The notes under the pieces were generated by a model, which saw only the letters and a list, made by a program, of their open reading frames with translations, ran no database searches and was not told where the DNA came from. A stretch of DNA of 33,882 nucleotides from an uncultured Prevotella sp. (GTDB lineage: Bacteria; Bacteroidota; Bacteroidia; Bacteroidales; Bacteroidaceae): contig ONYZ01000052.1 in the NCBI GenBank assembly GCA_900322175.1, positions 1 through 33,882 of the forward strand. Reading direction: 5' to 3'. Of the stretch, positions 2,046 through 20,577 are shown one piece after another (position 1 is the first letter of the stretch; each line of letters begins with the position of its first letter). A program made the translations under genes and the position numbers.

Positions 2046-2810
2046 TTACTGAATTTTTATTCTACCTTCTACCTGTGAATCAACTATCACGCCACGAGCC
2101 TGATGATCCTTGAAATAGTTCATAATAAGGAATCGGGTGTTGTTACTCTTCTCATTAGGAGCAATAATGTTAGTTCCCTCTCGGAGTACTGGCATACCAT
2201 CATTGCCCTCGATAAGATAATTGATGGTAGCCACGCGATACTCAGCCTTTGGATCAATTTCCTTGCCATGAAGCTTGCTTGAAATGAGTTTTCCATCTTC
2301 AGTAATCACCAACTCTACGCCATGACTTACACCCTCGCCTCCCCTATGGGCTATCTGACGGAACAATGTAAGCATCTGTTCGCCTGTAAGGGTGATGAAA
2401 CATATCTTGTTTTCAAAAGGAGCCACATCAAGCACATCTCCATAGGTAACATTGCCTTTAGTAAGGTCGGCACGGATACCCCCCATGTTATATATGCCGA
2501 GAACTGGATTTTCGTTATAATCCTTAGCAGACCAAACTAGAATATCAGCCAAGAGATTAGAAAGATTACTCTCAGGACGATCGGCATGCATATTCCTAGC
2601 AACCACACCAACTATCGGTCCCATAATACTATCGTTAACCCGTTTAAAGGGTTCTAGAAACTTAACAGCACGCTCATCAGGTTTCTTATCATAGCGACTA
2701 TCCACTATCAAGCGAGTACGCTCCACACTAGTAAGTTGATAATGCTTAGGTGCACACCCAACTATCATCAACGAGGCCAAAGAAGCATAAATAATACGTC
2801 TTATATTCAT
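2046..2810 (-). CDS. 5'-nucleotidase C-terminal domain lipoprotein
   Basis: A 254-aa protein homologous to the C-terminal, substrate-specificity domain of UshA-type 5'-nucleotidases. Recognisable stretches are ESNLSNLLADIL, YNMGGIRADL and APFENKICFITLTGEQ. The start is the ATG at 2808-2810: it gives a lipoprotein signal (MNIRRIIYASLASLMIVGC) and lies about 20 nt from the -7 box, whereas the longer frame upstream covers the promoter. The Cys after IVG is the likely lipidation site. It lacks metal-site motifs and so should need the metallophosphatase encoded 3 nt downstream. The pair looks like a two-polypeptide version of one enzyme, which I believe is common in Bacteroidetes. Confidence 0.88.
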   Translation of the reverse strand: MNIRRIIYASLASLMIVGCAPKHYQLTSVERTRLIVDSRYDKKPDERAVKFLEPFKRVNDSIMGPIVGVVARNMHADRPESNLSNLLADILVWSAKDYNENPVLGIYNMGGIRADLTKGNVTYGDVLDVAPFENKICFITLTGEQMLTLFRQIAHRGGEGVSHGVELVITEDGKLISSKLHGKEIDPKAEYRVATINYLIEGNDGMPVLREGTNIIAPNEKSNNTRFLIMNYFKDHQARGVIVDSQVEGRIKIQ

Positions 2811-2830
2811 AATTTGTTGTTTTAATGGTG

Positions 2831-2838
2831 CAAAAATA
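2831..2838 (-). promoter_or_regulatory. -7 box for the 5'-nucleotidase operon
   Basis: TATTTTTG on the minus strand, 20 nt upstream of the ATG at 2810. No clear -33 TTTG at standard spacing. Confidence 0.65.
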
Positions 2839-2880
2839 CAAAAAATATCCGAAATATTTCTTCGAAACAAAAAAAAGTTG

Positions 2881-2888
2881 TACCTTTG
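2881..2888 (+). promoter_or_regulatory. -7 box for rplS
   Basis: TACCTTTG followed by CACC, giving a predicted 5' leader of roughly 90 nt. It is divergent from the 5'-nucleotidase promoter, with about 42 bp between the two -7 boxes. Confidence 0.8.
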
Positions 2889-2939
2889 CACCCGCTTTTC
2901 GGCGTAATCGCTGGCAGGAAGTAACGAGAGGCCTGTTAT

Positions 2940-2960
2940 GTTGCGTTGGAACGATACAAC
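2940..2960 (+). promoter_or_regulatory. Hairpin in the rplS leader
   Basis: GTTG-CGT-TGGA-ACG-ATA-CAAC folds into a stem with one 3-nt bulge, 22 nt upstream of the rplS start. The leader also holds GGCAGG/CCTGTT complementarity around 2922-2937. This may be a ribosomal-protein leader used for autoregulation, but I do not recognise it as a defined family. Confidence 0.4.
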
Positions 2961-2982
2961 AATTTAATTATTTAAAAGTACA

Positions 2983-3324
2983 ATGGATTTAATTAAAGTT
3001 GCTGAAGAAGCATTTGCAACCGGCAAGAAGTTCCCAGAGTTCAAGGCTGGTGACACTATCACTGTCGCTTACAAAATTATTATCCAGCTCTATCGTGGTG
3101 TAGTAATTAAGATTGCTGGTCACGGAGACAAGAAGCGCTTCACTGTTCGCAAGATGTCAGGTACAATTGGTGTAGAGCGTATCTTCCCAATCGAGTCTCC
3201 GAACATTGAGAGCATCGAGGTCAACAAGGTTGGTAAGGTTCGCCGTGCTAAGCTTTACTATCTGCGCAAGCTCACTGGTAAGGCTGCTCGCATCAAGGAG
3301 AAGCGCCACAACGTTGGTGAATAA
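2983..3324 (+). CDS. rplS: 50S ribosomal protein L19, with a 6-residue internal deletion
   Basis: A 113-aa L19 protein. The core runs from [12 protein letters not shown] through [23 protein letters not shown] and VERIFP to [23 protein letters not shown]. Compared with E. coli L19 (VWVVEGSKKRLQAFEGVVI), the segment reads [13 protein letters not shown]. Six residues corresponding to EGSKKR are absent between I33 and I34 (around 3079-3084), an in-frame loss of 18 nt. That loop is near-universal in L19. The gene is otherwise intact with its own promoter, leader and terminator. Either the loop is dispensable in this lineage or the assembly has dropped 18 nt. L19 sits at the 30S-50S interface. Confidence 0.97.
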
Positions 3325-3330
3325 AAAAGG

Positions 3331-3370
3331 AAAAAAGAGGCTGCGCCCAAGTGTGCAAGCCTCTTTTTTT
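3331..3370 (+). terminator. rplS terminator, possibly bidirectional
   Basis: 12-bp stem AAAAAAGAGGCT/AGCCTCTTTTTT with a 15-nt loop and a T run to 3370. The matching A run on the left gives a U tract on the minus strand too, so it can also end the convergent 50-aa gene, whose stop codon overlaps the T run. Confidence 0.92.
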
Positions 3371-3521
3371 ATTCCCCATGCAAGGCATTCTGGAATTCTT
3401 CCCAACTCTGGAACCCAGCCAAAAGCGAGAGACGGTCGAGCGTCTTCTTATCAGGTTTTCTCAAGATCTCCTTCTCTACTGCCTCAAGCAGTTTTCTAAG
3501 CGCCAAACGTTTCTTTTCCAT
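3369..3521 (-). CDS. Small conserved-looking protein, 50 aa
   Basis: The product starts MEKKRLALRKLLEAVEKEIL and continues RKPDKKTLDRLSLLAGFQSWEEFQNALHGE. It is charged, predicted all-helical, and has no signal or membrane segment. I recall similar unnamed short proteins in Bacteroides and Prevotella but no function. The ATG at 3521 is preferred over a longer frame to 3611 because the upstream part is low-complexity and covers both divergent promoters. It shares a compact divergent promoter region with the AICAR formyltransferase gene. It is real on grounds of its own -7 box, codon pattern and a precise end on the shared terminator. Confidence 0.72.
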   Translation of the reverse strand: MEKKRLALRKLLEAVEKEILRKPDKKTLDRLSLLAGFQSWEEFQNALHGE

Positions 3522-3539
3522 ATTATTAAAAATTTGCTG

Positions 3540-3547
3540 CAAATTTA
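3540..3547 (-). promoter_or_regulatory. -7 box for the 50-aa gene
   Basis: TAAATTTG on the minus strand, 18 nt upstream of the ATG. It lies between the -33 and -7 regions of the divergent promoter, so the two promoters overlap and may exclude each other. Confidence 0.65.
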
Positions 3548-3560
3548 CAAAAATATTTTG

Positions 3561-3568
3561 TACCTTTG
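3561..3568 (+). promoter_or_regulatory. -7 box for the AICAR formyltransferase gene
   Basis: TACCTTTG followed by CACAC; a TTTG at 3533-3536 is 24 nt upstream. The predicted leader is only about 20 nt, which fixes the start codon at 3596. Confidence 0.78.
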
Positions 3569-3595
3569 CACACAGAAATAGAAAATATCGCAAAA

Positions 3596-4780
3596 ATGAA
3601 AGAATTAGCACTCAAGTACGGATGTAATCCCAATCAGAAGCCCTCACGCATCTTTATGACTGAGGGCGAGCTACCCATCGAAGTTATCAACGGCCGTCCT
3701 GGATATATCAACTTCCTTGACGCATTCAATGCATGGCAGCTTGTAAAAGAGCTTAAAGCTGCAACTGGATTGCCTACAGCAGCATCGTTCAAGCACGTAA
3801 GTCCTGCAGGAGCAGCTGTAGGACTGCCTCTGAGCGACACACTGAAGAAGATATACTTTGTTGACGATGTAAAGGACCTCGACGAGAGTCCTATCGCTTG
3901 TGCATACGCTAGAGCACGTGGTGCCGACCGTATGTCGAGCTATGGCGACTTTGTAGCTCTGTCTGACACCTGCGACGCAACAACAGCCAAGTTGCTTAAG
4001 CGCGAGGTAAGCGATGGTGTGATTGCACCCGACTTTACTCCAGAGGCTATAGAGATACTGAAGGACAAGCGCAAGGGAACATACAATGTAATCAAGATTG
4101 ATCCTACATACGTGCCTGAGCCAATCGAGCGCAAGCAGGTATTCGGCATCACATTCGAACAGGGTCGCAACGAGATCAAACTCGATGACGATGCACTCTT
4201 CGAGAATATGCCTACACAGAACAAGACCTTTAGTCCTGAAGCTAAGCGCGATCTGATCATCGCACTGATTACACTGAAATACACTCAGAGTAACTCTGTT
4301 TGCTACGTTAAGGATGGTCAGGCCATTGGTATCGGAGCAGGCCAGCAGAGCCGTATCCACTGCACACGTCTGGCTGGAAACAAGGCAGATATATGGTGGT
4401 TGCGCCAGCATCCAAAGGTAATGAACCTACCATTCATCGACAATATCCGTCGTGCTGATCGCGATAACACCATCGATGTATATATCTCAGAGGATCACGA
4501 CGATGTACTACGCGATGGCACATGGCAGATGTTCTTCAAGGAGAAGCCCGAGATACTCACTATGGAGGAGAAAAAGGAGTGGATAGCAAAGAACACTAAA
4601 GTAGCCCTGGGTTCTGACGCATTCTTCCCATTTGGCGACAATATTGAGCGAGCTCATAAGAGTGGCGTAGAGTTTATCGCCCAGGCTGGTGGCTCAGTTC
4701 GCGATGACAATGTTATCGAGACCTGCGATAAGTATGGTATTGCAATGGCGTTTACTGGTGTACGTCTGTTCCATCATTAA
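3596..4780 (+). CDS. Stand-alone AICAR formyltransferase (PurH C-terminal domain only)
   Basis: A 394-aa phosphoribosylaminoimidazolecarboxamide formyltransferase. It transfers a formyl group from 10-formyl-THF to AICAR in purine synthesis. SFKHVSPAGAAVG carries the catalytic Lys-His pair (K66, H67). SNSVCYVKDGQAIGIGAGQQSR and the C-terminal AFTGVRLFHH are further hallmarks of the transformylase domain. The IMP cyclohydrolase (MGS-like) domain found at the N-terminus of PurH is absent, and the protein starts directly at the transformylase fold. A separate cyclohydrolase or a full PurH must exist elsewhere. The upstream ATG at 3566 is rejected because it lies inside the -7 box. Confidence 0.9.
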   Translation: MKELALKYGCNPNQKPSRIFMTEGELPIEVINGRPGYINFLDAFNAWQLVKELKAATGLPTAASFKHVSPAGAAVGLPLSDTLKKIYFVDDVKDLDESPIACAYARARGADRMSSYGDFVALSDTCDATTAKLLKREVSDGVIAPDFTPEAIEILKDKRKGTYNVIKIDPTYVPEPIERKQVFGITFEQGRNEIKLDDDALFENMPTQNKTFSPEAKRDLIIALITLKYTQSNSVCYVKDGQAIGIGAGQQSRIHCTRLAGNKADIWWLRQHPKVMNLPFIDNIRRADRDNTIDVYISEDHDDVLRDGTWQMFFKEKPEILTMEEKKEWIAKNTKVALGSDAFFPFGDNIERAHKSGVEFIAQAGGSVRDDNVIETCDKYGIAMAFTGVRLFHH

Positions 4781-5022: not shown

Positions 5023-6291
5023 ATGAAACTACTAAAACTACTATTAATTATAGCCCTACTCTGCAGCACGAACACCCTTTGTGCTCAGAAGTATGTAGGT
5101 GGCGACATCTCTGTATTGAAAAGCTACGAAGACAATAACGTAGAATACTACGACGAACAAGGCGCCAAGATAGACGATGTGCTGAAATATATGAAAAGCG
5201 ATACAGTGGGATGGAATGCCCAGCGCGTACGTTTATTCGTAAATCCCAACCAAAAAGCTCCTGATGGGAAAAAAGATGCACAGGTTTGTCAAGACATAGA
5301 CTATGTGATAGCACTCTGCAAGCGTATTAAGGAAGAAGGGTTTGCTCTAATGCTAGATTTTCACTACAGCGACACTTGGGCTGATCCATCTAACCAATGG
5401 ACACCTGCAGCATGGACTACACTATCCAATGAAGAACTGCTACAGAAGATATACGACTATACCAAAGAGTGCTTGGAGAAACTAGTGGAAGCAGGAGCAA
5501 CGCCTGACTTCATACAGACAGGCAACGAGATTTCATACGGTATGCTTTGGGGAAAATATAACAGCAAAACATACATTTGCTATTCAAACTCTTCAGAATC
5601 AAACTGGACACGTTTCAAGAACCTGCTAACACAGGCCACCAAGGCTTGCAGAGAGGTTTGTCCAGAGGCCAAGATCATCATTCATTCAGAGCGTTCAGGC
5701 GATGGAAATGCACTGAAAGACTATTTTACACGTTTAGCCAGTATCGATTACGATATAATCGGACTGTCATATTACCCATTCTGGCATAAATCACTATCTA
5801 CACTTGCCAGCAACTTAAAGATGCTAGCTAATGATTTTTCAGATAAAAAAGTTCAAATTGTAGAAACTGCCTACTACTATCAGTGGCAGCCTGAAAAGGG
5901 GAAAGGTATAGATTATGATTTCCAAAGCACCTGGCCCATTTCGCCTGAAGGTCAAGCTGCTTATACAAAAGCACTCATAGAGGAGTTAAACAAGCACAGC
6001 AATGTAAACGGACTTTATTGGTGGTTCCCAGAAGAAAATGGCAATGGTCCTGACAGTAAAGTCCTTACAGGATGGGTGAATCGTGGCTTATGGGACAATA
6101 ATACACATAAAGCACTGCCAGCTCTCTACGAGCTAAAGAACTTCAACAATGCGAGTTCTGGTATCAACAATTTACGATCTGATACAGAGGAGCCTACTTG
6201 TTGGTATACTCTTTGTGGCCGCAAATTAAGCAAGAAGCCTGTAGCGAAAGGCATTTATGTGGCTAATAAAAGAAAAATCATAGTTGACTAA
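5023..6291 (+). CDS. Secreted GH53 endo-beta-1,4-galactanase
   Basis: A 422-aa glycoside hydrolase of family GH53, which cuts beta-1,4-galactan side chains of pectin (arabinogalactan I). Residues 1-22 form a signal peptide ending CAQ. The (beta/alpha)8 domain begins at GGDISVLKSYED and includes VRLFVNP and LMLDFHYSDTWADP. The acid/base is E169 in QTGNEISYGMLW and the nucleophile E281 in VQIVETAYYYQW. The last 30 residues (CWYTLCGRKLSKKPVAKGIY...) resemble the short C-terminal sorting tails of Prevotella type IX secretion cargo. No SusC/D pair lies nearby, so it is not in a canonical polysaccharide locus. It is convergent with tolC across a perfect hairpin. Confidence 0.93.
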   Translation: MKLLKLLLIIALLCSTNTLCAQKYVGGDISVLKSYEDNNVEYYDEQGAKIDDVLKYMKSDTVGWNAQRVRLFVNPNQKAPDGKKDAQVCQDIDYVIALCKRIKEEGFALMLDFHYSDTWADPSNQWTPAAWTTLSNEELLQKIYDYTKECLEKLVEAGATPDFIQTGNEISYGMLWGKYNSKTYICYSNSSESNWTRFKNLLTQATKACREVCPEAKIIIHSERSGDGNALKDYFTRLASIDYDIIGLSYYPFWHKSLSTLASNLKMLANDFSDKKVQIVETAYYYQWQPEKGKGIDYDFQSTWPISPEGQAAYTKALIEELNKHSNVNGLYWWFPEENGNGPDSKVLTGWVNRGLWDNNTHKALPALYELKNFNNASSGINNLRSDTEEPTCWYTLCGRKLSKKPVAKGIYVANKRKIIVD

Positions 6292-15557: not shown

Positions 15558-16920
15558 ATGACAGTAGAAACAGACATAAAGAATCGCCCGATTATCGAGC
15601 GACAGATGATTGCCGCGGGCAATGAGATAGAGCAACTGATGGAGTATTACCCCTGTTTGCGAGAGATTTGCATTCCTTGGCACACTGATGACTCGTTGCT
15701 CTTATCGCTTTTACCATCGTCCAAGAGAGTTGCGACGGCTCAACTATAGTGTTTTCATCATTGGCGACCCAGGTTCGGGCAAATCGTTCGTTAGTACCCT
15801 CTACGAACTTTTGGCAGGTCCTATCCGTAAGGTATCCAAAGAGGGGCAGAATGCAGAGAATCGTTATCGTCGCAAGCGCAAGGAGTGGTTGGATAACGGC
15901 CAAAAGGGCGATGGACCTGCAATGTCTAAGGTCATCATCCGCACCCATCCTGCACGCACATCCAACAAGGTTTTTATCGAGGACATGAAGAATGCCGTAG
16001 AGATAGTGGATGGCAAAGAGATGCACCTGCACATGCTGTCGTTCGACACAGAACTCGATAATGCTATCAACCAGCAGGGCGAGGCTTGGAGCAACAAGAC
16101 CTATCTTGAACTCAAGGCATTCCACAACGAGGAAGATGGACAGTTCTTCTCGAACTACGACTCTGAGCTGTGTGACTTCAATGTGTATTGGAACTTTGTT
16201 TACACTGGCACTCCAAACGCGCTGAAATCCAAGGTAAATGCCAAGAACATCGGCAACGGCTTCTCTACCCGCTTGGCAGCAATCCCTATGCCTAGCTCAC
16301 ACTTCGAGATGATGAAGCGCGAGGAAGATGAAGAGGCAGGCGTTGAGCCAGAAGAATTCAAGACCATGCGCATGTGGGCAGAGCGACTCGACACCACACA
16401 TGGCGAATTGCCTATCAGCAAACTGGTGGATAGCACCTACGAGTGGGCAAAAGATCGTATGTCGGATGCTGAGGAGGACCAGTCGAAAACTGACGAACTG
16501 CTGCTTAAACGCGTACCTTATTATGGTATAGCCGTAAGTGTGCCATTCATCATGATGCGCCACTGGGACGAATGGCAAGAGCATCACACACTGACTATCG
16601 ATGATATCGACTTGCGTCTGTGTCGTCTTGCCATGGACATTCAGTTCTTATGCCAACGCCACTACTTCGCCAAGTATTGGGACTACTATTTTATGCAGCA
16701 AGCCCAGTGCATCAGCACTCCAATTCACAAGCGCCACACCAAGCTGATGCGTGCCCGCTATAACATGCTGCCTGACGAGTTCAGCACCTTCAGCATGCAG
16801 CTATACCTAGGCGTAACCCAACGAAATGCAGAAAAGATGATAGAACGCTGGCTAAGCGATGGCTACATCAAACGAATAGAATCAGGGAGGTATAAGAAAC
16901 TTTTCTTAGAGCTGACATAA
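15558..16920 (+). pseudogene. DUF3987-type P-loop protein, frameshifted near its N-terminus
   Basis: The natural start MTVETDIKNRPIIERQMIAA at 15558 leads into ICIPWHTDDSLLLSLLPS, then hits a stop at 15749. The rest, from RRLNYSVFIIGDPGSGKSF (Walker A-like GDPGSGKS) to the end, lies in another frame. The break is near 15715-15725. The distal part keeps LHMLSFDTELDNAINQ (Walker B-like acidic strand) and a winged-helix-like C-terminus. DUF3987 proteins are primase/helicase-like ATPases often tied to mobile elements in Bacteroidetes. The gene has its own promoter and terminator. A small deletion or insertion is likely; I cannot tell decay from assembly error. A distal ATG at 15688 gives a 410-aa product, but it lacks the natural start. 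Confidence 0.8.
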
Positions 16921-17064: not shown

Positions 17065-18873
17065 ATGAGAATAATATTTGTTTATTTTCTTCTTTTCATA
17101 TCTGTTTGTGCCACAGCTCAAACTAGCAGTCCTGATGACGATTATCGAACTGGTGCTTATTATTATGAAAAAGGCGATTACAAGAATGCATTTCGTTACT
17201 TTTTGAGCGCCGCAAAGGCAGGAGATTCAAATGCGCAGAATGATATTGGGAACATGTATCAGACGGGAGAGGGTGTTATACAAAGTTATACGAATGCTTT
17301 TCAATGGTATTTAAAAGCGGCTAACCAAGGGCATTATTTCGCTCAAAATTCATTGGGAGACTTATATTATTCCGGCAATGGCGTTAAACAGGATTATTTA
17401 AAGGCATACGAATGGTATTCTAAAGCAGCGGAACTAGGTTGTAATGAAGCACAGTTTTCATTAGGAAGTATGTATCATTATGGCGATGGTGTTAAACAAG
17501 ATTATTTAAAGGCATACGAATGGTATTCTAAAGCAGCGGAACAAGACAACACAAACGCACAATATGCTTTAGGAGTACTTTATGATGATGGTTATGGGGT
17601 GCTACAAGATCATATGAAAGCATACGAATGGTACATGAAAGCAGCACAAAGTGGTGATTGGATGCCATTGTATTGCCTTGGCCGTTTGTTTTTAAACGGA
17701 TTGGGAGTCAAAGAAGATTTAAACAAGGCAGAGTTATGGTTTAAGAAATCAATAGAGGCCAATAAAAACAACCCATATTCATATGGTAGACTAGGATTGA
17801 TATATGCATTACGTGACAAAGACTATAAAAAGGCTTTGGAATATTCCGATTTAGCTCTTTCATGCAAAGAGATTAAAAATGGTGATAAAGCGCAGATTGG
17901 AAAAATATACGGAGCCCGTGGGCAGATTTTCTATCTAAAAGGTGATATGCAGAATGCTAAAAAGGTCTTAAATAAATGTATAGAGCTAAATCCCAAATAT
18001 TTAGATAGCGATGATGATTTTGCCAAGATTATGTCCAAACAAAACAATCGAGGTTCTTATTCTTATGACAACAAAGTCCACGCGAGTTCTTTTGTTGACA
18101 TAGACTCTGACATCTTCATCAATCCTATAATTAATAATTATCACTTTGCAATCATAATTGGCAACGAAAAGTACAAGAACGAAGTTGACGTTCCTTTTGC
18201 CAATAATGATTCAAAAATATTTTGCCAATATGTAGAAAAAACACTAGGCGTGCCACATGAACAGATTCGATTAATAGAAAATGCGGGATATAACGACATC
18301 CGTATTGCCATTAACTGGTTAGTACAAGCAATGCGGGTTTGTAGAGGCAAAGGAAAAGCAATCATTTATTATGCTGGACATGGTATTCCCAACGAATCAG
18401 ACCAATCATCATATCTGTTGCCAGTAGATGGAATAGGAAATGACCCTGGTTCTGCTTATGCTTTACAAGAATTATATGACAAATTGGAAAATGTTGATGC
18501 TAAATCAATAACAATATTCTTGGATGCATGTTTCAGTGGTTCTAAGCGTGAAGAAGGCATGCTCACATCAGCACGAGGTGTTGCAATTAAAGCAAAACAA
18601 AGCACTCCTAAAGGGAATCTTATTATTTTTTCTGCTGCTCAAGGAGATGAAACTGCTTATCCATACAAAGACAAACAACATGGATTGTTTACTTATTTCC
18701 TATTGAAGAAGTTACAAGAAACAAAAGGTGAAGTAACATTAGGAGAACTTAGTGAATACTTAGCCGACGAAGTAGGACGTCAATCATTTATCAAAAACAA
18801 CAAGATTCAAACTCCAACAGTTTCAGTTTCTTCATCACTACAAAATAGTTGGAAAAGTATTAAGTTGAAATAA
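17065..18873 (+). CDS. Secreted Sel1-repeat protein with C-terminal caspase-like (C14) protease domain
   Basis: A 602-aa protein. A signal peptide (1-18, ending CATA) is followed by Sel1 repeats of 36 residues (about 28-230; units of the form A-x-Y-x-L-G-x-x-Y-x-x-G-x-G-V-x-Q-D-x-x-K-A-x-x-W-Y-x-K-A-A), then TPR-like helices (about 240-320). A linker leads to a caspase fold (360-595). Catalytic residues are H439 in YYAGHGIP and C489 in FLDACFSGS, both intact, so the protease should be active. Two Sel1 units are almost identical in DNA (17383 and 17491, 108 bp apart), a sign of recent duplication. The gene is AT-rich relative to the core genes around it. A role in envelope proteolysis, signalling or stress is possible; the export signal argues against a cytoplasmic suicide effector. 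Confidence 0.9.
   Translation: MRIIFVYFLLFISVCATAQTSSPDDDYRTGAYYYEKGDYKNAFRYFLSAAKAGDSNAQNDIGNMYQTGEGVIQSYTNAFQWYLKAANQGHYFAQNSLGDLYYSGNGVKQDYLKAYEWYSKAAELGCNEAQFSLGSMYHYGDGVKQDYLKAYEWYSKAAEQDNTNAQYALGVLYDDGYGVLQDHMKAYEWYMKAAQSGDWMPLYCLGRLFLNGLGVKEDLNKAELWFKKSIEANKNNPYSYGRLGLIYALRDKDYKKALEYSDLALSCKEIKNGDKAQIGKIYGARGQIFYLKGDMQNAKKVLNKCIELNPKYLDSDDDFAKIMSKQNNRGSYSYDNKVHASSFVDIDSDIFINPIINNYHFAIIIGNEKYKNEVDVPFANNDSKIFCQYVEKTLGVPHEQIRLIENAGYNDIRIAINWLVQAMRVCRGKGKAIIYYAGHGIPNESDQSSYLLPVDGIGNDPGSAYALQELYDKLENVDAKSITIFLDACFSGSKREEGMLTSARGVAIKAKQSTPKGNLIIFSAAQGDETAYPYKDKQHGLFTYFLLKKLQETKGEVTLGELSEYLADEVGRQSFIKNNKIQTPTVSVSSSLQNSWKSIKLK
17383..17542 (+). repeat. Tandem Sel1-encoding DNA repeat, 108-bp period
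   Basis: About 52 bases from 17383 (GTTAAACAGGATTATTTAAA...) recur at 17491 with one mismatch, in the same frame, encoding two identical Sel1 cores (VKQDYLKAYEWYSKAAE). Confidence 0.85.
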
Positions 18874-18886
18874 AAATAAGAAGAAG

Positions 18887-18920
18887 TTTGGTATAAATAA
18901 AAAAATTGTTTGTATCTTTG
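18887..18920 (+). promoter_or_regulatory. Promoter of the ATPase/partner/nadK unit
   Basis: TTTG (18887-18890), 22 nt, then TATCTTTG (18913-18920). The leader is about 11 nt, which sets the ATPase start at the ATG at 18938, not a GTG at 18932. Confidence 0.82.
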
Positions 18921-18937
18921 CGCCAAATTTAGTGTAT

Positions 18938-20149
18938 ATGAAACATCTCGTTATAAGGAATATAGGTCCACTTAAAGAAGTGGATATTGCTTTGAGTAAG
19001 ATAAACTTAATTATCGGGCCTCAAAGTACTGGAAAGAGTTGTATATTAAAGATCGCTAGTTTTTGCGCTTGGGTAGAGAAAACAATATCCTTAAACCAAG
19101 ACAAAAGAGATTTTCTTTCAAGAGAAGCTATTGACAAAAATCTAATAGCTTTCCACAACCTTCAAGGTTACGTAGATAATTCTTCCTTCTTTGAATACGA
19201 AACAGAAATAATGAGATTCTCTTTTTCATTCAAAGACAATAAATCTGTATTTGAATGGAAGGAGGGACGTTGGGATTTTAAACGCAACAAGATTTCATAT
19301 ATTGTTGCAGAGAGAAACATACTCTCCGTAATTCCCAATTGGTATGAAATAGATTTCCCCAACAATAGTATCCGCTATTTTATGAAAGAATGGCAGAATG
19401 CAAGAAACAGCATTGGAGACAAAGAACCACTTTCAATTCTTAATACAGGAATCAGATATAAATACGACAAAAATAGAGGAACTGACAAAATAATGCTGAA
19501 TGATGGGAAAGAGTTCAATTTGCTTAACGCATCAAGTGGTATGCAATCTCTAATTCCATTGTTTGTGTTCATCAACTACATCTCTAAATATATCTTCACC
19601 TTAGACATTCAAAGCATAAAAGACCAAGAAGCCAAAGTAAATTTACTCTACCAACTAAAAGAGAACCACCCTTCTGGTAAATATATTTCCATAGAAGACC
19701 ATGGTATCTCTGTTGCATCTGATGCTTTACACTATATAATTGATTCCTTTACGAAGTACGATCATAGCGACATATATCTCGAAGAGCCCGAAGAGAATCT
19801 ATTCCCAGAGACTCAGCGAGATTTGGTTAATTGGCTGGCAGAGATTGTGAATGGAGAGAGAAATCATACATTATTTATCGCCACTCATAGCCCTTACATC
19901 ATGTCTGCTTTCAACAATCTCATCCAAGCTGGGGATATTATTGAAGAATCGCCAGAGAAGAAAACTGAAGTTGAGAAGATTATTGGTGGCAATCGTGCTA
20001 TTAAGTACAACGATGTTGCAGCCTTTGCTATTGCCAATGATAGTGTTCACAGTATCAAAGACGATGAACTTCGATTGATGTCGCCATCTGAACTTGATAC
20101 TGTCTCTGATGACATTTCTAATGTTTTCAATAAATTACTTGAATTATGA
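18938..20149 (+). CDS. AAA-family (ABC/RecF-like, AAA_15) ATPase of a putative defence pair
   Basis: A 403-aa cytoplasmic ATPase. Walker A is GPQSTGKS (27-34), after an N-terminal strand typical of RecF/SMC/OLD-like ATPases (KHLVIRNIGPLKEVDIALSKINLIIG). A long insert with variable helices follows, then a signature-like LLNASSGMQSLIPL. Walker B is IYLEEPEENLFPETQ (E282-E283) and the switch/H-loop FIATHSPYIMSAF has H317. There is no fused TOPRIM nuclease as in OLD or GajA, so a partner is expected. The next gene overlaps it by 4 nt (ATGA). ATPases of this kind are sensors in anti-phage systems such as PARIS, Septu and retron-linked modules. AT-rich codon use suggests transfer. Confidence 0.88.
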   Translation: MKHLVIRNIGPLKEVDIALSKINLIIGPQSTGKSCILKIASFCAWVEKTISLNQDKRDFLSREAIDKNLIAFHNLQGYVDNSSFFEYETEIMRFSFSFKDNKSVFEWKEGRWDFKRNKISYIVAERNILSVIPNWYEIDFPNNSIRYFMKEWQNARNSIGDKEPLSILNTGIRYKYDKNRGTDKIMLNDGKEFNLLNASSGMQSLIPLFVFINYISKYIFTLDIQSIKDQEAKVNLLYQLKENHPSGKYISIEDHGISVASDALHYIIDSFTKYDHSDIYLEEPEENLFPETQRDLVNWLAEIVNGERNHTLFIATHSPYIMSAFNNLIQAGDIIEESPEKKTEVEKIIGGNRAIKYNDVAAFAIANDSVHSIKDDELRLMSPSELDTVSDDISNVFNKLLEL

Positions 20150-20577
20150 GAGACATCCCAGCAAATATAATTCGCGAGAGAAGGGACTCACTGATAGTAT
20201 TAAAGGAAAAGAAAAGCAAGATAACGCTACTAAACCCCCAAAAGAGACTATATAAAGAGGTGAAAGTGGATGGCAATCTCTACGCCATTACTGAAACCAA
20301 CGAAAAGAAATGTGATTATCTTGAAATAGGTAAAGAGACACTGGATGCATTCTTTATTGAGTTGAAAGGAATTGATATTGACACTGCATACCAACAACTG
20401 CTAGCATCAACCACAAATATCAATGTTGGTGATGTAAAAAAGAAAGTTGCAATAGCTGTCACTCCTCATATACCAAAGGCCAACGTAAAGTTCCAGAAAT
20501 ACAAGAAGTTGTGTCAGAAACAAGGTACGGAGTTGATTGTAAAAAATAGTGGAAGTACATATGATTTGAACAAATAA
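20146..20577 (+). CDS. Small protein with PD-(D/E)XK-like nuclease signature, ATPase partner
   Basis: A 143-aa soluble protein translationally coupled to the ATPase. I do not recognise a named family. Residues 54-88 read KKCDYLEIGKETLDAFFIELKG followed by a helix with AYQQL: D57, then E72-x-K74 on a strand, then Q83/Q84. That spacing (D-x14-E-x-K plus a following helix) is the core of PD-(D/E)XK nucleases. It is small for a free-standing nuclease, and the C-terminal half is basic (VKFQKYKKLCQKQ), which may contact nucleic acid. It is probably the effector of the pair; an inactive structural role is also possible. The gene ends 1 nt before nadK. Confidence 0.72.
   Translation: MRDIPANIIRERRDSLIVLKEKKSKITLLNPQKRLYKEVKVDGNLYAITETNEKKCDYLEIGKETLDAFFIELKGIDIDTAYQQLLASTTNINVGDVKKKVAIAVTPHIPKANVKFQKYKKLCQKQGTELIVKNSGSTYDLNK

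Follow-up and report, generated by a model that had tools for sequence, protein, structure and literature searches.

A stretch of 33,882 nucleotides from an uncultured Prevotella sp. (GenBank assembly GCA_900322175.1, contig ONYZ01000052.1, positions 1 to 33,882 of the forward strand), referred to below as the window, contains two adjacent genes, A and B, which encode an ATPase and a small nuclease-like partner and whose probable part in phage defence is considered here. The features of the locus are collected in Table 1. Gene A can be read from the ATG at 18938, which gives 403 amino acids (aa), or from the GTG at 18932, which gives 405 aa, and its end shares four nucleotides, ATGA, with the start of B, an overlap already described in the original prediction for this locus. 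Both genes are AT-rich, as had also been claimed (35.3% GC in A and 36.4% in B against 45.6% in the window), and the Sel1-caspase-like gene upstream is equally so (35.8%). The promoter assigned to the pair was found as a predicted site that follows the Bacteroidota consensus; sites of the form TTTG-N19-23-TAnnTTTG occur four times on the plus strand of the window. Its -7 part is kept in the related loci L050, L051 and L052, and its -33 TTTG has no counterpart at the same place in L050/L051.

Table 1. Features of the A-B locus in the window.
Feature	Position	Strand	Basis
Gene A: OLD/ABC-type AAA ATPase, 403 aa, PDC-M29A-like	18938..20149	+	ORF reading, family scans, motifs
Gene B: 143-aa PD-(D/E)XK-like nuclease	20146..20577	+	Motifs, profile alignment, predicted model
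ATGA overlap, stop of A and start of B	20146..20149	+	Read from sequence
Promoter-like site, Bacteroidota-type: TTTG 18887-18890, N22, TATCTTTG 18913-18920	18887..18920	+	Sequence, predicted
Block homologous at DNA level (~81%) to the L050/L051 pair; unit that changed place	18847..20536	+	
Neighbour gene: Sel1/TPR repeats and caspase-like (Peptidase_C14) domain; not counted in the system	17065..18873	+	

The product of gene A carries the motifs of an ABC-type ATPase: a Walker A motif (GPQSTGKS, residues 27-34, 19016-19039), a signature-like motif (SSGMQS, residues 199-204), a Walker B motif (LEEPEE) containing E282/E283 (19781-19786), and H317 (19886-19888). The positions originally given for Walker A, the two glutamates and the histidine are all correct for the start at 18938. 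The protein passes the Pfam cut-offs for AAA_15 and AAA_21, and the same scan gave no match to TOPRIM in the 403-aa ATPase. Among the PADLOC models, PDC-M29A matches it over its full length (5.6e-59, residues 1-403 on 1-406 of 410), while the AriA, PD-T4-4_A and PtuA models are far weaker (1e-15 to 1e-10). A profile of nine relatives, compared with solved structures, matched an OLD-family endonuclease, AriA and PtuA, and also FtsE and other ABC-transporter ATPases. The nearest ATPase relatives, L050 to L052, come from Prevotella and Prevotellaceae assemblies.

Gene B encodes a protein of 16.3 kDa with an isoelectric point of 9.5. Its candidate catalytic residues are D57 (20314-20316), E72 (20359-20361) and K74 (20365-20367), with Q84 in the following helix, just as the original prediction had read them. 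Taken alone, the protein gave nothing above the cut-off in Pfam and NCBIfam, nothing of note in PHROGs and PADLOC, no family at an E value of 1 with either of the two PDC-M29B models, and no convincing relative among the PDB sequences; a first scan of the genome-contig collection returned 39 stretches with no relative among them. The Pfam and PADLOC scans also gave no match to HNH, PtuB, DUF4435 or AriB, in keeping with the earlier statement that the partner is neither HNH nor DUF4435. In an alignment of 30 B proteins, E72 and Q84 never vary, and at least 90% of the members keep D42, C56, D57, K74 and A81. The PDC-M29B model PDLC04563 matches 22 of these 30 proteins, scanned singly, at an E value of 0.1 or better (among them L034, which this model had itself detected); since it matches such relatives and both PDC-M29B models miss the B of the window, the latter represents a divergent branch. 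Weak matches to Cas4 appear for six of the 30 (best 0.00028), and single B proteins weakly match Shedu, NERD, HSDR_N_2 and PDDEXK_9, a level that unrelated families reach equally.

When profiles are compared, D57, E72-x-K74 and Q84 fall on the equivalent positions of both PDDEXK_9 and HSDR_N_2. With 30 members, the B alignment scored 37.0 (probability 83%) with PDDEXK_9 and 24.0 (11%) with HSDR_N_2; the 41-member alignment, which excludes the partial or doubtful members among 52 B proteins, scored 24.6 (15%) and 28.5 (32%), respectively, and its 60 shuffles, run with this alignment only, reached at most 16.9 and 17.1. Unrelated profiles scored 11 to 17 with the B profile, and the DUF4435 alignment, made from 20 of 30 fetched loci, stayed near that level (18.3). 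The reference alignments used 14 of 16 extracted HSDR_N_2 sequences and 12 of 17 for PDDEXK_9, those dropped being wrong frames by eye. The AlphaFold model of B, obtained with 41 sequences (predicted local distance difference test 85.6, predicted template modelling score 0.83), has the expected strand-strand-helix core, so that the fold check proposed for the 143-aa protein came out as a predicted nuclease-like core; its weak stretch is residues 41-50 (mean 57). When 1000 chains were re-aligned with the model, Can2, Cdn1 and Card1 matched it best, and other matches include EcoT38I, EndoMS, FokI, BspD6I, BamHI and McrBC. The structural Z scores are below 8, which the tool describes as a common level, and rows for acetyl-CoA carboxylase go up to 5.7; the structural comparison is therefore supportive and not conclusive by itself. 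Motif, profile and predicted model agree on a PD-(D/E)XK nuclease.

The linkage of the two genes extends well beyond the window. Of 301 genomes from the family, 17 matched in a search with the B profile alone, as did 12 of 395 from the phylum, the genome of the window being included in each. Five of the 19 matched stretches of the family search contain a stop (L021, L022, L024, L025 and L029), and the open B frame was taken for all except L029. Altogether, 31 distinct B matches were obtained, five of them seeds (for the seed L035, at a contig end, the upstream gene cannot be judged), and a PDC-M29A-like ATPase lies directly upstream on the same strand in 25 of the 26 others, which bears out the conserved linkage that had been proposed as a check. 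At L040 this ATPase is split into two frames. The remaining match, L029 (1274-1677), is a decayed pair in which an ATPase with an internal deletion stands beside a truncated B, the latter left out of alignment A3. Searches seeded with the ATPase gave 79 loci from genome contigs, taken from the best 80 of 425 confirmed relatives, and nine from viral contigs; the partner counts thus describe the nearest relatives only. The best ATPase is accompanied by B at 50 of these 88 loci, by a divergent partner with a CE...ExK motif at three, by an alternative partner of about 180 aa at 32, and by no recognised partner at three. At 52 A-B junctions, including the phage and plasmid records L048/L049, the exact 4-nt overlap recurs 28 times by script, with L052 likewise by eye, and 49 junctions lie within 20 nt by script. 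The genome of the window itself holds a second pair on the minus strand (G000:C64, L010; ATPase 3399-4589, B 2799-3389), whose B matches PDC-M29B and whose ATPase is related; a third B lies at the end of another contig (G000:C53, L015). The A-B pair is real and conserved.

Both genes are under purifying selection. Compared with L050, to which A is 85% and B 81% identical as proteins, A has a ratio of nonsynonymous to synonymous substitution rates (dN/dS) of 0.05-0.06 and B one of 0.08-0.10, at dS values of 1.1-1.6, and the reading frames are thus more than chance. The pair has also changed place: in L050/L051 the same block sits at a site that matches window positions 3306-3596, where 241 bases separate the flanking open reading frames (ORFs). 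The genes that flank this site are presumably ribosomal-protein L19-like and purine-synthesis-like. The NAD kinase stretches of 11 relatives (15 loci found, 11 fetched) contained no A or B at 1e-10. Relatives of B also occur on a 4.7-kb 'phage' record, together with what we take to be an IS3-like transposase gene, and beside a presumably recombinase-like gene on a mobilizable plasmid from Muribaculaceae. With regard to the surroundings, the L050 island holds, by eye, two nucleotidyltransferase-HEPN-like gene pairs and a restriction-type N-terminal domain. The neighbours of 26 B loci matched 71 PADLOC families at 1e-15 (145 of 157 genes scanned); among the matches listed are Qat, type III restriction, DRT and SspH. 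In G164, a genome that belongs to the same genus, 20 spaced stretches matched 21 families (136 of 147 genes), including mad, PglZ, AriA and PD-Lambda-3 models. These figures count models and not proteins, and the neighbour ORFs were a random choice of at most 900 aa.

The original prediction supposed that the pair may be an undescribed subtype. This did not hold: the 2023 PADLOC-DB already lists such a pair as the candidate system PDC-M29, and the same two-part design has been characterised as WonAB (PMC12137116). The window pair is a divergent member of PDC-M29 and not a new kind. It shares with that candidate the full-length ATPase match and the order of two adjacent genes on one strand, and differs in its B; the proposed PADLOC check thus recognises the ATPase and leaves the partner undetected. 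The literature search found no mention of the name PDC-M29 and no experiment on it. WonAB, by contrast, was shown in 2025 to be a two-gene system of the Vibrio cholerae WASA-1 prophage that aborts phage infection (PMC12137116). According to that report, WonA (AWB73975.1) is an ABC ATPase in which K34, R182, E300 and H333 are needed, and WonB (AWB73976.1) is a 16.1-kDa PD-(D/E)xK partner that needs K71 and binds the dimerised C-terminal extension of WonA. Defence requires both genes, DNA stays intact while translation stops, the toxicity of excess WonB depends on active WonA, and rRNA or tRNA was suggested by the authors as the target (PMC12137116). They place WonAB in a larger family of ABC-ATPase sensors with nuclease effectors, name PD-T4-4 as related, and report that the nuclease differs in some related operons (PMC12137116).

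The window pair resembles WonAB in being a two-gene operon with the Walker A lysine, a conserved arginine, the Walker B glutamate and the H-loop histidine in the same order, and with a partner of about 16 kDa whose ExK lysine lies near 71-74 (K74 here). The Walker A, signature, Walker B and H-loop features are read from the sequence of A, and the PD-(D/E)xK character of the partner comes from the predicted model and profile. The conserved arginine is at 126 in A and at 182 in WonA, the two being likened by motifs, sizes and order alone; in the relatives L131-L133 and L041 it lies at 180-183, a WonA-like spacing. None of the fetched ATPases checked for the WonA numbers K34/R182/E300/H333 matched them exactly, and searches of viral contigs with L132 and L130 each found their own contig only, without reaching WonAB.

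The pair was also compared with other ATPase-nuclease systems. PD-T4-4 has a similar operon and its PD-T4-4_A model matches A (4.5e-15); the best matched stretch covers only residues 280-368, and PD-T4-4_B gives no match to B. AriA of PARIS is among the nearest ATPase matches of A. Its partner AriB is a DUF4435 protein, and membership in PARIS was rejected because B has no DUF4435 or AriB match. PARIS also keeps an OLD-like ATPase and a nuclease in separate genes, but AriB is a TOPRIM nuclease (PMC10568477, PMC12796447), whereas B is of the PD-(D/E)XK type. Septu likewise combines an ABC-type ATPase with a nuclease partner, and PtuA gives weaker matches to A. The PtuB of Septu is an HNH nuclease; B has no HNH or PtuB match and a PD-(D/E)XK core instead, so this assignment was also rejected. 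A fused OLD or Gabija GajA protein was discarded, since the ATPase has 403 aa with no TOPRIM match behind it. As a separate observation, 58 of 61 family genomes contain a DUF4435 gene (for instance G000:C90:11145-11912, L231), which is thus nearly universal there, unlike a normal PARIS-type defence system; a crude test of 20 of the 30 DUF4435 loci fetched showed, in every one of the 20, a nearby frame on the same strand that carries a P-loop or EEPE motif.

The alternative partner of about 180 aa (for example L074:7182-7721 and L101:3176-3751) replaces B behind 33 of the 111 ATPases in a tree, that is, the 32 best ATPases mentioned above and the second ATPase of L101. These ATPases form one group, which otherwise holds only the other ATPase of L101 and is nested among B-paired rows; the distribution of partners over the tree requires two changes, and well-supported branches force one or both of these. 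The tree is a quick, midpoint-rooted one from which the partial rows L115 and L136 were dropped, and it shows the exchange without its direction. The ATPases of this clade also differ in their tail, beyond residue ~325. Eighteen aligned alternative partners have invariant E10, D14, D55 and D57 (PECYxDT...GIIDxDK), from which a TOPRIM-like protein is suggested by motif only. The profile test against the DUF4435 alignment was negative (15.7; shuffle mean 15.5, maximum 25.6), the 18 proteins gave nothing of note in Pfam (best 0.0076), two members tried against PADLOC had no match at 0.01, and reference sequences of the OLD-like TOPRIM family were obtained from none of 20 genomes. We tentatively suggest that the ATPase may be a general infection-sensing chassis with an exchangeable nuclease; if true, the window pair would be one form of a modular system whose ~180-aa-partner form is undescribed.

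Taken together with its relatives and the WonAB report, from which we infer phage defence, complex formation, trigger, target and abortive outcome, the pair is probably a two-gene anti-phage unit of the PDC-M29/WonAB kind. A would dimerise around ATP like other ABC-type ATPases and act as sensor and gatekeeper, while B, made in step with it by means of the 4-nt overlap, would be held or licensed by A. Upon infection A would change state and leave B free to cut nucleic acid, most likely RNA of the translation machinery by analogy with WonAB, and the cell would stop before phage progeny are made. The order, motifs and sizes shared with WonAB make it most likely that A senses and that B cuts under its licence, RNA being the likelier target.

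A minor but appreciable probability is given to direct restriction, in which A would recognise the ends of foreign DNA, or replication structures, and B would cut phage or plasmid DNA while the host survives. In other systems, ABC ATPases of this class work on DNA; of PDDEXK_9 and HSDR_N_2, the two families tried, the 41-member B alignment scores higher with the latter, the nuclease domain of type I restriction, and EcoT38I, EndoMS and FokI are among the structural matches of B. Against it, the pair has no methylase or specificity gene, and WonAB leaves chromosomal DNA intact and blocks translation (PMC12137116). A toxin-antitoxin module in which A merely neutralises a toxic B has a low probability: the small basic nuclease behind a larger partner and the AbiEii-type name of the AAA_21 domain would suit it, yet the ATPase head is conserved where the partner is exchanged, and WonB is harmless without WonA, which rules out plain sequestration in WonAB (PMC12137116). 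Slightly less probable still is a function of the cell itself, such as DNA repair, which a nuclease with an ABC ATPase would also fit and with which the patchy presence, the three B copies in one genome, the change of site and the carriage on a plasmid are at odds. The poorest candidate is a three-gene unit with the Sel1-caspase protease as killing effector and A and B as its sensor: a decayed caspase-gene piece precedes the pair at the other chromosomal site in L050/L051 (about 5847-5918) and in L052 the pair is preceded by a Sel1-repeat gene, but the former is a mere remnant beside an A and B under purifying selection, no caspase domain was found in the latter, the window protein finds only these Sel1 repeats in the 88 ATPase loci (E value 1e-8), and six other loci of its own genome match the caspase part, so that a caspase as third component is unlikely.

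As for the other neighbours, the mobile-element-type gene said to lie beside the pair is present as a DUF3987-like gene (15688-16920, a match below the Pfam cut-off), albeit one gene further up, the Sel1-caspase-like gene being the one that adjoins A. A second ORF (15558-15749) overlaps it in another frame, and the gene (15558-16920) may be frameshifted. Downstream of B lies a gene that we take to be NAD-kinase-like. Between 20579 and 24887, a GH3-like gene separates it from a DJ-1/PfpI-like gene that points the same way; in 10 of 11 fetched relatives (L220-L230) the two genes are divergent, and in three a pdxJ-like gene lies between them. This difference in order and orientation indicates that the region has been rearranged in the window.

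These results bring a catalogued candidate, PDC-M29, next to the characterised WonAB, the two having in common the design of an ATPase with a PD-(D/E)XK partner, here in Bacteroidota, and a wide sequence set with candidate catalytic residues is now at hand. The part most worth following is the natural exchange of partners, which would show which part of the ATPase decides the nuclease that it controls.
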